A stretch of 64,000 nucleotides of DNA from Pseudidiomarina aquimaris. GTDB lineage: Bacteria; Pseudomonadota; Gammaproteobacteria; Enterobacterales; Alteromonadaceae. The position numbers and the translations under genes are program-made. The stretch lies in contig NZ_PIPT01000001.1 in the NCBI RefSeq assembly GCF_003987395.1, positions 62,001-126,000 of the forward strand, given 5' to 3'. Below, one piece after another: positions 30,653 to 32,714 of this stretch; the first letter of the stretch is position 1; each line of letters begins with the position of its first letter. The notes under the pieces are model-generated. The model was not told the DNA's origin. It saw only the letters and a list, made by a program, of their open reading frames with translations, and did not search any database.

Positions 30653-31224
30653 AAGAAAGCGAAAGCCCAAAAGCGGTCTTAGAATTTTGGTTTCAAGAGC
30701 TTTTACCGCAGGACTGGTTCAAAAAGAGCGAGGCATTGGACCAAGCAATCAACAAGCGTTTCAATAAGGTGTTGAAGGCATGTGCTGCGGGCGAGTGCTG
30801 GGAGTGGCGCCGCCCAGATGCGGCGGGGCCGGGCACCGATGGACTTGGTCGACTTGCTGAAATCTTGGTACTCGATCAATTTTCACGCAATATCTATCGC
30901 GATGACGCTCGTGCATTCGCGCAAGACCCATTAGCGCTGGGGCTCGCGCAAGAAGCGGTGGCAGGGGGCGTTGATAAATCGATGAATGCTTCGCAGCGCG
31001 CGTTTTTGTATATGCCGTACATGCATAGCGAGTCCCTGCTGGTGCACGATGAAGCCATGCGCCTATTTAACCAACCGGGACTCGAAACCAACTACGAATT
31101 CGAAATCAAACACCGTGAAATTCTCGAACGTTTTGGCCGCTATCCGCATCGTAACAAAGCTCTCGGGCGCGCTTCTACACCCGCGGAGCTAGAGTTTTTA
31201 AGCCAACCCGGCTCCAGCTTCTAA
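30640..31224 (+). CDS. DUF924 family protein
   Basis: 194 aa all-helical protein with the family motifs EFWFQELLPQDWFKK, VLDQFSRNIYRD and FLYMPYMHSESL, ending in KHREILERFGRYPHRN. DUF924 proteins have a TPR-like fold and no established function. The start overlaps the end of bcsC, so it may be read through from the cellulose operon. Confidence 0.88.
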   Translation: MVGIKESESPKAVLEFWFQELLPQDWFKKSEALDQAINKRFNKVLKACAAGECWEWRRPDAAGPGTDGLGRLAEILVLDQFSRNIYRDDARAFAQDPLALGLAQEAVAGGVDKSMNASQRAFLYMPYMHSESLLVHDEAMRLFNQPGLETNYEFEIKHREILERFGRYPHRNKALGRASTPAELEFLSQPGSSF

Positions 31225-31250
31225 CTAAGAAATTACTGTAGCCCGATGTA

Positions 31251-31265
31251 ATGGTCTCCTCCAAC
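31251..31265 (+). repeat. IS left subterminal inverted repeat
   Basis: ATGGTCTCCTCCAAC, exact reverse complement of the right repeat. Located 5 bp inside the inferred left end. Confidence 0.93.
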
Positions 31266-31326
31266 AATACGGCATCGCAATGTGCCAAAATGATACGTGA
31301 TCATTTACATGCTGGAGGAGACACAG

Positions 31327-32358
31327 GTGAGTATTGTAACCAGAATCGGACTGGATTTGGCAAAAGATGTTTTTCAGGTGCATGCGGTTGATGCACAGGA
31401 TGAAAAAGTTACCAACAAGCAGCTCAAGCGTAAAGATTTGCTGCAATGGTTTGCCAAGTTAGAGCGCAGTGACGATTGTCTGGTCGCGATGGAAGCCTGT
31501 GGTAGCAGTCATCACTGGCGCCGTGAGTTAGAGAAGTTGGGGTATCGCACGATGGCGATCCCACCGGCGTACGTAAAGCCGTATGTGCGGACGAACAAGA
31601 ACGACGCCAATGACGCACGAGCGATTTGTGAAGCAGCGAGCCGGCCTGGCATGCCAACAGTACGATTAAAAACAGTGGCTGAGCAAGACGCAATGATGCT
31701 GATAAAGCAACGCGATGGCCTCGTCAGAGAGCGTACGCGACAAGTGAACCGCATTCGTGGACAGCTGAGCGAGTACGGCATTTTCATCGGCCAAGGCATT
31801 AATACGCTACGCCGTAAGTTGCCGGAGATTTTGGAAGATGCGGACAACGGCCTAGAAACGCTAGGGCGTTCATTGGTGCAGCTGTCGTACGATTATATCG
31901 TGGGCATTGATGCGCAGATTGAATTGTACGAGAACAAGATAAAAGAGTTAGCACGCAGCAGTGCGCAAGCACAACGCTTGCAAACAGCACCGGGCATTGG
32001 CCCGATAACAGCGATGACGCTCATCGCGCAGCTTGGCGATATGAAACAGTTTGCGCACGCTAGAAGCGCTTCAGAGTACTTAGGTGTGGTGCCTCGGCAG
32101 TTTAGTAGTGGCGGCAAAACGATGCTTGGCGGTATAAGTAAACGCGGCAATAGTCAGTTAAGAAGCTTACTGATTCACGGTGCTCGCTCGGTGATACGAG
32201 TGGCCAAGAATAAAGATGATAAGTTCAGCCGCTGGGCGGTCAGCGTGGCAGAGCGTCGTGGCAACAATGTTGCCGCTGTGGCGGTTGCGAACAAACTATT
32301 GCGCATCGTTTGGGCGATGCAAACCAAAGAGCAAGAGTATCGCGCGATGGCTGCGTAA
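31327..32358 (+). CDS. IS110/IS1111 transposase (DEDD)
   Basis: About 343 aa from GTG 31327, chosen because GGAGGAG lies 6 bp upstream and the protein then begins VSIVTRIGLDLAKDVFQVH as in relatives. RuvC-like DEDD residues: D in GLDLAKD, E in AMEACGSSHHW, DD in KNDANDARAI. The C-terminal transposase_20 domain has PGIGPITAMTLIAQLGD and the catalytic serine region FSSGGKTMLGGISKRGN. The frame is intact. Such enzymes recombine DNA guided by a bridge RNA. Confidence 0.93.
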   Translation: MSIVTRIGLDLAKDVFQVHAVDAQDEKVTNKQLKRKDLLQWFAKLERSDDCLVAMEACGSSHHWRRELEKLGYRTMAIPPAYVKPYVRTNKNDANDARAICEAASRPGMPTVRLKTVAEQDAMMLIKQRDGLVRERTRQVNRIRGQLSEYGIFIGQGINTLRRKLPEILEDADNGLETLGRSLVQLSYDYIVGIDAQIELYENKIKELARSSAQAQRLQTAPGIGPITAMTLIAQLGDMKQFAHARSASEYLGVVPRQFSSGGKTMLGGISKRGNSQLRSLLIHGARSVIRVAKNKDDKFSRWAVSVAERRGNNVAAVAVANKLLRIVWAMQTKEQEYRAMAA

Positions 32359-32620
32359 GCTAGCGCATCTTTTTAATAGAGTCACCCGAAAGAACGACGT
32401 AAGAGCTACAACAACGATTGTGAATTAAAACTGATGGTAAACGAGTCATCCTGCATGGCGTGAGACCGATGAACTGCAGTCATTGAATGACGTTAGCCCG
32501 ATAGGCCACACCATGCGCGGATTACATCAAGGCCCCACAATGAGCTAGAAGTGAATACATTGTGACTCGAGGCCGAATATACGAACGCAACTTCGCTTAC
32601 GACCGGTTTTAACTTGCAAA
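32359..32620 (+). ncRNA. candidate bridge RNA (seekRNA) of the IS
   Basis: Four guide-like segments lie in order in this tail. AACTGC (32472-32477) is antisense to the right target flank. TAGCCCG(AT) (32494-32502) is sense to the left flank. ATTACATC (32521-32528) is antisense to the left IS end. ATATACG (32577-32583) is sense to the right IS end. Each pair surrounds a hairpin: GTCAT/ATGAC (32479-32491), and GGCC-CACAATG/CATTGTG-GGCC within 32531-32574. Both 5' guides end in CA and both 3' guides in CGA at the core position. This is the two-loop architecture of IS110 bridge RNAs. RNA ends are not known. Confidence 0.75.
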
Positions 32621-32635
32621 GTTGGAGGAGACCAT
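32621..32635 (-). repeat. IS right subterminal inverted repeat
   Basis: GTTGGAGGAGACCAT, exact reverse complement of the left repeat, 5 bp inside the inferred right end. Confidence 0.93.
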
Positions 32636-32640
32636 ATACG

Positions 32641-32655
32641 CAGTTTTACTGCGGG
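32641..32655. other. right half of the interrupted hairpin target
   Basis: CAGT-TTT-ACTGCGGG; joined to CCCG at 31242-31245 it forms an 8-bp perfect stem. The IS split the 5' arm of the hairpin after its fourth base. The original hairpin lay about 17 bp after the DUF924 stop and may have been its 3' end structure. Confidence 0.75.
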
Positions 32656-32714
32656 GCAAGCCTAGCGCCAATAAAAATGGCAAGAATTTGAAAGATACTG
32701 GTTGGGAGAAACGA

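Follow-up and report, generated by a model that had tools for sequence, protein, structure and literature searches.

An IS1111-family insertion sequence in a REP of Pseudidiomarina aquimaris, with a downstream RNA region that matches its target and both of its ends

The element, its target and the host copies

The window, a stretch of 64,000 nucleotides from Pseudidiomarina aquimaris, contains a complete IS1111-family insertion sequence of 1395 bp (31244–32638, plus strand; Table 1). Its transposase gene, tnp, is followed by a noncoding stretch of 280 nt that reaches from the stop at 32358 to the IS end at 32638 and includes the right subterminal inverted repeat (sTIR), as is typical of the downstream region of IS1111 elements. 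The GTG start of tnp at 31327 was picked from an alignment, and the reading frame is open. The transposase matches PF01548 (8.8e-21) and PF02371 (1.6e-25) in Pfam. D10, E56, D93 and D96 are invariant in the 13 sequences of alignment A1 (the window element and 12 relatives), and the translation contains the SG motif (GVVPRQFSSG), as expected of a DEDD transposase with a C-terminal Tnp_20 domain. The sTIRs form a perfect 15-bp repeat, where IS1111 elements have about 11 bp or more. Extensions of 7 bp on the left and 3 bp on the right are the arrangement described for IS1111 elements (PMC11187229; this and the other papers cited were available in part, and what is said of them is limited to those parts). 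The DEDD transposase, the 15-bp subterminal repeats, the extensions and the noncoding tail bear out the IS1111-type membership that had been proposed from the sequence. The original prediction had placed the element at 31246–32640. An element does lie there, but family convention, which counts the CG at the left end, gives 31244–32638.

Table 1. Features of the IS1111-family element and its flanks, in window coordinates
Feature	Position	Strand	Remarks
Left half of interrupted REP target, GTAGCC	31238–31243	+	intact REP copies in genome
Complete IS1111-family insertion sequence	31244–32638	+	sTIRs, 7/3-bp extensions; further ends elsewhere in genome
Left 7-bp extension CGATGTA, begins with core CG	31244–31250	+	
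Left subterminal inverted repeat ATGGTCTCCTCCAAC	31251–31265	+	
Third, direct copy of right sTIR over tnp ribosome-binding site	31313–31325	+	10/13 identical
tnp, 343-aa DEDD transposase, GTG start	31327–32358	+	PF01548, PF02371; invariant D10, E56, D93, D96
seekRNA/bridge RNA region (predicted)	32437–32600	+	model R2 52.3 bits, E 2.8e-13; model R1 67.5 bits
Outer stem of target loop, 5' arm (3' arm 32507–32515)	32454–32462	+	read by eye; predicted folds
Right target guide AACTGCA, antisense	32472–32478	+	6/7 match; pairs with top strand of right flank
Hairpin GTCATTGAATGAC between target guides	32479–32491	+	predicted folds, helix 4
Left target guide TAGCCCG, sense	32494–32500	+	7 match; pairs with bottom strand of left flank
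Left donor guide ATTACATCA, antisense to left IS end	32521–32529	+	8/9 match
Hairpin between donor guides, GGCC 32531–32534 with GGCC 32571–32574	32531–32574	+	predicted folds, helix 6
Right donor guide ATATACG, sense to right IS end	32577–32583	+	7 match
Candidate -35 box TTGCAA of circle-junction promoter	32614–32619	+	by eye
Right subterminal inverted repeat GTTGGAGGAGACCAT	32621–32635	+	
Right 3-bp extension ATA	32636–32638	+	
Right half of interrupted REP target, CGCAGTTTTACTGCGGG	32639–32655	+	rejoined halves equal intact copy

The flanks of the element, when rejoined, read GTAGCCCGCAGTTTTACTGCGGG and are identical to an intact copy elsewhere in the genome (G000:C21:63586-63608). Intact repeats of the pattern GTAGCCCGYAGTNNNACTRCGGG number 32 in the host genome, against none for a reversed-pattern control, and REPs of this pattern occur in 7 of 26 genomes of the genus, the host included. 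Besides one full copy of the element, the host genome contains, at contig breaks, four of its left ends and four of its right ends, which puts the copy number at about five. For the other four copies the assembly includes only ~125 nt per end, a length that lacks the guide region and leaves the ends unpairable. All five left and five right ends sit at the same point in one family of GTAG-headed palindromic REPs. The left flanks all end in CC before CG (GTAGCC in four of five, GTCACC in one), and the right flanks are CGYAGTTYTACTRCGGG in all five, three of C type and two of T type. A sibling in the congener G002, 87% identical in DNA and with the same target guides, sits at the same point in a T-type REP; both repeat types fit the right guide, because a G in the guide pairs with C or wobbles with T. 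One specific target in one orientation, as is usual for IS1111, is thus seen at the host ends and in the G002 copy, with one deviating left flank. Comparison with the flanks of other copies had been proposed as a check, and it turned up a shared target and no unrelated flanks. A search of 15 congener loci, where the upstream sequence differs, revealed no orthologous empty site.

The transposase frame of the G002 sibling (G002:C13:122667-123694; L026/L136) is broken near codon 145, giving two overlapping matches. This broken frame could be taken to mean that the window element is likewise a dead copy, its RNA no longer working. Such a reading is unlikely, given that tnp is open in the window, with its catalytic residues invariant in A1, and that five left and five right ends occupy different sites in one genome.

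The hallmark of REPs linked to Y1 (RAYT) transposases is a GTAG with an imperfect palindrome behind it; two congeners, G008 and G003, each have a Y1_Tnp gene situated among REPs of the target family. The only Y1_Tnp gene found in the host (L145:1420-2166, on G000:C21) is ~45 kb from the nearest such REP on its contig. The hairpin flanking this gene is of the GAGAGGGCAGCCCTCCC type, unlike the GTAGCCCG REP when compared by eye, and a partnership with the REP target is unsupported. The REP family of the target seems to be present in the host genome without an adjacent cognate gene.

Guide segments and fold of the predicted downstream RNA

Four segments of the tail match, in order, the right target half, the left target half, the left IS end and the right IS end (Table 1). 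All had been predicted, and all are present at the places and in the order and sense claimed. Scored as an ordered chain they reach 28 of 30, a value attained by none of 5000 dinucleotide shuffles (maximum 26). When 384 combinations of order and sense were tried on the real tail, the proposed order tied for first with one other, both at 28; the order is therefore unproved by the window element alone, and it is settled by the relatives. Each pair of guides straddles a hairpin, as had been noted: GTCATTGAATGAC in the first pair, and AGGCC...GAGGCC with an inner CACAATG/CATTGTG in the second. The description of the guide ends was also correct, the 5' guides ending in CA and the 3' guides having an A after CG. 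In the window element the final A of both 5' guides lies opposite the core C, a mismatch.

Relatives were gathered from two sources. Matches were obtained in 64 of 146 genomes, of which the best 30 loci were kept, the window element among them, and a scan of genome contigs contributed 80 loci kept of at least 582 confirmed relatives. The resulting 110 loci were reduced to 104 with a repeat candidate, 75 with clean ATGG...CCAT ends and both flanks, 74 distinct elements and 73 tested, one being dropped because its tail fell short of the fixed window. To position the RNA, the donor guides were fitted to the IS ends and to two core bases of the right flank, and scores for the target guides were then taken over a fixed window.

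At least 12 of 14 guide positions agree with the element's own flanks in 49 of the 73 elements, the window element among them; with swapped flanks the count is 33 of 5329. With one element per 60%-identity cluster, the figures are 27 of 35 own and 6 of 1190 swapped at the same threshold. Guides that follow the flanks across relatives are the covariation that had been proposed as a check. Target guides for both strands, the top-strand guide first, are characteristic of seekRNA/bridge RNA systems and are found here. Fourteen of the 73 elements score 10/14 or less, so some are mis-bounded or under other rules. These fourteen include four elements closely related to one another (L035, L037, L038 and L124), in which the left guide fits at least partly and no guide for the right flank is visible; they possibly follow a relaxed or different right-target rule.

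Profiles were drawn from 59 elements chosen for a good target match, which inflates the values at the fitted target positions. In these profiles the match of the left guide spans the core and five bases of the flank and has an abrupt end, while the right guide extends to +8, two positions beyond the fitted stretch. Positions +7 and +8 of the right flank, which lie outside that stretch, covary too (z 7.3 and 3.6). Single pairs of elements illustrate the same behavior. L067 and L072, with transposases 89% identical, differ by one base in guide and target alike, and L060 and L072, with transposases 76% identical, have wholly different targets, each matched 14/14. The assertion that the tail matches are hard to ascribe to chance is upheld by the shuffled tails, the own-versus-swapped flanks and the per-cluster test, and a chance origin is rejected.

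An alternative is that the transposase protein itself recognises the REP DNA or its hairpin, and that the tail matches are non-guiding relics such as captured flanking DNA. IS3-family elements, which are not known to have such an RNA, target REPs as well (PMC1525189), and 7 of 70 empty sites form stems of at least 7 bp, compared with 2.8% of random sites. However, the other 63 sites are not strong palindromes and yet the guides track the flanks across the set, and similar transposases with different guides have matching different targets (L067/L072 and L060/L072). With only 7 of 70 sites strongly palindromic, recognition of REPs by protein alone is strongly disfavoured, and we hold it to be very improbable.

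Among the 74 elements, GTAG stands at the same offset from the insertion point in five (L025, L026, L029, L084 and L096, of which L025 and L026 are siblings), and other offsets give 0 to 3. Insertion in these five is after base 6 of GTAG-headed sites of differing sequence. Four of the five sites are strong palindromes, L096 not being among the sites in that palindrome listing. The genome that carries L029, G100, has 12 matches to related GTAGGG palindromes, with two mismatches each.

An RNA region downstream of the transposase had been claimed, and covariance model R2, built without the window element or its sibling, finds it at 32437–32600 (52.3 bits, E 2.8e-13). Model R1, whose training set includes the window element, gives 67.5 bits there. 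R1 was applied to 94 of the 110 loci and matches 90; since 52 of the loci were its training set, this amounts to 38 of 42 others. An E. coli plasmid element, absent from all other tests, scores 106.1 bits and its guides match the flanks 14/14. A plasmid element from Alteromonas (88.5 bits, 11/14 guide matches) is no independent case, because in tail and flanks it is very similar to L027. Rfam gave no match up to E 1 in 31200–32700.

RNAalifold, run on 52 tails, predicts 20 pairs, 19 of them with two-sided changes. These tails make up alignment A2, that is, the 59 selected elements less seven that were removed manually as duplicates or for doubtful placement. A2 misplaces the outer stem of the window element by ~1 base, as judged by eye, and pairs were therefore counted in alignment A3, whose fit to the model biases it in the model's favour. 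This alignment consists of 93 matches from 90 of 94 loci, three loci being represented twice, one of these by a 55-nt fragment at E 0.0093. In the 93 model-aligned matches 95.5% of cells pair, compared with 30–42% in slid controls, and helices 5 and 6, those of the donor guides, are conserved. The models thus point to a conserved two-loop fold, as in other seekRNA/bridge RNA systems. Folding of the tail had been suggested as a check, and its outcome is mixed: the predicted two-loop fold is conserved over the relatives, but for the window tail by itself RNAfold gives a fold just slightly more stable than those of shuffles (z -1.87, with 10 of 200 as good).

The donor guides call for a test of their own, as the ends are so conserved that swapping them and comparing scores has little power (for the window element, 2 of 73 foreign ends score no worse than its own). 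We located them by motifs, picked after the tails had been seen. The first motif, CCG[AGT]AT, is absent from five elements and the second from two further ones. For the right donor guide, the triplet that follows CCG[AGT]AT is identical to the 3-bp right extension in 65 of 69 elements, where the best of 2000 shuffles reached 35; among the 33 elements with an extension other than ATA, agreement is exact in 31. The two bases before CAT match for the left donor guide in 48 of 67 (best of 2000 shuffles, 21). By this motif-placed test, donor guides for both IS ends are present, as seekRNA/bridge RNA systems would have them, and they agree with the predictions of PMC11208160. They go beyond PMC11187229, where, in the part available, only target matches are described.

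A further possibility is that the RNA works through its target half alone, and that the donor guides are a by-product of binding of the sTIR or the ends by the transposase. The ISEc11 seekRNA of 82 nt is reported to be sufficient and even more efficient (PMC11187229), and a fit of the left donor guide to the second core base is seen in just 0.37 of the 59 selected elements. Judged by the spacing seen here, this 82-nt RNA should lack the right donor guide. Against such a restriction, the donor guides covary with the terminal extensions (65/69 exact, 31/33 when not ATA) and donor helices 5 and 6 are conserved; we consider it rather unlikely. The donor half clearly covaries as judged by sequence, which is the less expected given that the published 82-nt RNA sufficed, and within this portion of the IS1111 family the existence of a donor loop is very likely.

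The predicted circle junction and a third repeat copy at the start of tnp

The common CG core that had been described holds in the window element, but it is not general among relatives. The second core base of the 59 selected elements is A at the left end in 42 and G in the right flank in 51, and most right-donor and left-target guides have G there. If the ends of the window element were joined, TA (32637–32638) and CGAT (31244–31247) would form a -10 box, TACGAT, 17 nt past TTGCAA, as read by eye. In the joined ends of relatives, a -10-like box arises where the TA of the right end meets the NAAT of the left, and a -35-like box lies in the right end, usually 17 bases away. Promoter-like boxes at the junction score at least 9/12 in 74% of 74 elements and in 1.5% of shuffled ones. 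The junction promoter itself is already published (PMC11187229). Its duty in joining TA to NAAT suggests an explanation for the A at the second core base of the left end.

A third, direct copy of the right sTIR covers the ribosome-binding site of tnp. Among relatives such a copy reaches at least 9/13 in 53 of 73 elements and at least 10/13 in 36 of 73 (27 of 35 and 17 of 35, respectively, per 60% cluster). Shuffled repeats reach 10 in 1.0%, and swapped repeats differing at three or more positions in 5.1%; an element's own repeat outdoes such a swap in 73% of comparisons. The copy, placed by its best own match, changes in step with the sTIR, most strongly at two variable positions (z 10.5 and 9.1, 68 elements). 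In 52 of 53 elements it ends within 3 nt of an in-frame start codon. Literature searches, at the level of their result listings, found nothing on a third repeat copy in IS1111, a 2003 paper on IS4321/IS5075 being outside their reach.

Because it is complementary to the left sTIR, the third copy folds with it in all 53 predicted leaders that have it, a result that is partly by construction and assumes that the transcript includes the left sTIR. The predicted leader of the window element (31251–31345) has -30.9 kcal/mol, with the third copy paired to the left sTIR. We consider the chances about even that, in much of the IS1111 family, this copy hides the tnp ribosome site by forming a hairpin with the left-end repeat in any left-end transcript, of host or circle-junction origin. 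The ends would then serve as recombination ends, guide partners, -10 box and translation switch, with the promoter duty accounting for the core mismatch at the left end. However, many differences of the third copy from the sTIR are A for G, which would break hairpin pairs and speaks against a role in RNA. The copy may have a role at the DNA level, for example in binding of the transposase to the start of its own gene.

Comparison with known systems and proposed mechanism

The window element and its RNA belong to an already known kind of system, the seekRNA or bridge RNA described in 2024. IS621 has the mirror guide order and the core CT. That the order found here mirrors IS621 was part of the original prediction, and it agrees with the published difference between IS1111 and IS110 (PMC11187229). 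The IS621 bridge RNA resembles the present one in its two loops, four guides, REP target and DEDD recombinase, but IS621 belongs to the IS110 group, carries the RNA in its left end and has a STIR of only 2–3 bp (PMC11208160). ISPa11, an IS1111-family element of Pseudomonas aeruginosa, has a downstream seekRNA, a REP target and the same order of target guides (PMC11187229), and inserts between REP bases 6 and 7 (PMC1525189), as does the window element when counted from GTAG. It differs in host and REP, and the two were compared by description, unaligned. The seekRNAs of ISEc11, ISKpn4 and ISPst6 share with it the family, the RNA position, the top-strand guide before the bottom-strand guide and the 7/3-bp extensions, whereas their targets are linear or attC sites and, in the available part of the paper, only target matches are described, donor guides being readable here (PMC11187229). 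ISPpu9 also has a REP target, a small RNA downstream of tnp and an inhibitory 5'-UTR fold that buries the tnp ribosome site, comparable to the leader hairpin predicted here; however, it is of IS110/IS492 type without clear terminal repeats, and an antisense RNA has been proposed to open the fold (PMC8450116).

We regard it as highly probable that this IS1111-family element finds its site by the RNA encoded downstream of tnp, with two loops and four guides. The basis is the anatomy of the element, the uniformity of the target, the covariation of the guides with target and ends, and the covariation within the RNA fold. By analogy with the known systems, the RNA would be expressed and bound by the transposase, and a circle intermediate would recombine with the target. 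In the first loop, the right target half would be paired on its top strand by the 5' guide, and the left target half on its bottom strand by the 3' guide, the target here being the head of a GTAG-type REP palindrome (GTAGCC and CGYAGTT on either side of the insertion point). The two guides of the second loop would pair likewise with the joined IS ends. The transposase–RNA complex would bring together the circularised IS and the REP and recombine them at the shared core in one orientation, and insertion would be expected into GTAGCCCGCAGTT and GTAGCCCGTAGTT. The interpretation first put forward for this locus is supported as a whole, in family, downstream RNA, guide roles and target.

The guide RNAs of IS1111 elements may thus be readable from sequence alone and pairable with their target and ends, and this reading would include the donor half, which two papers of 2024 handle differently. 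Two features give the window system its interest: the clean covariation of its donor guides and the third repeat copy, which makes a control point for the transposase directly testable. Its relatives form a large set of natural guide–target pairs from which RNA-guided recombinases may be chosen.
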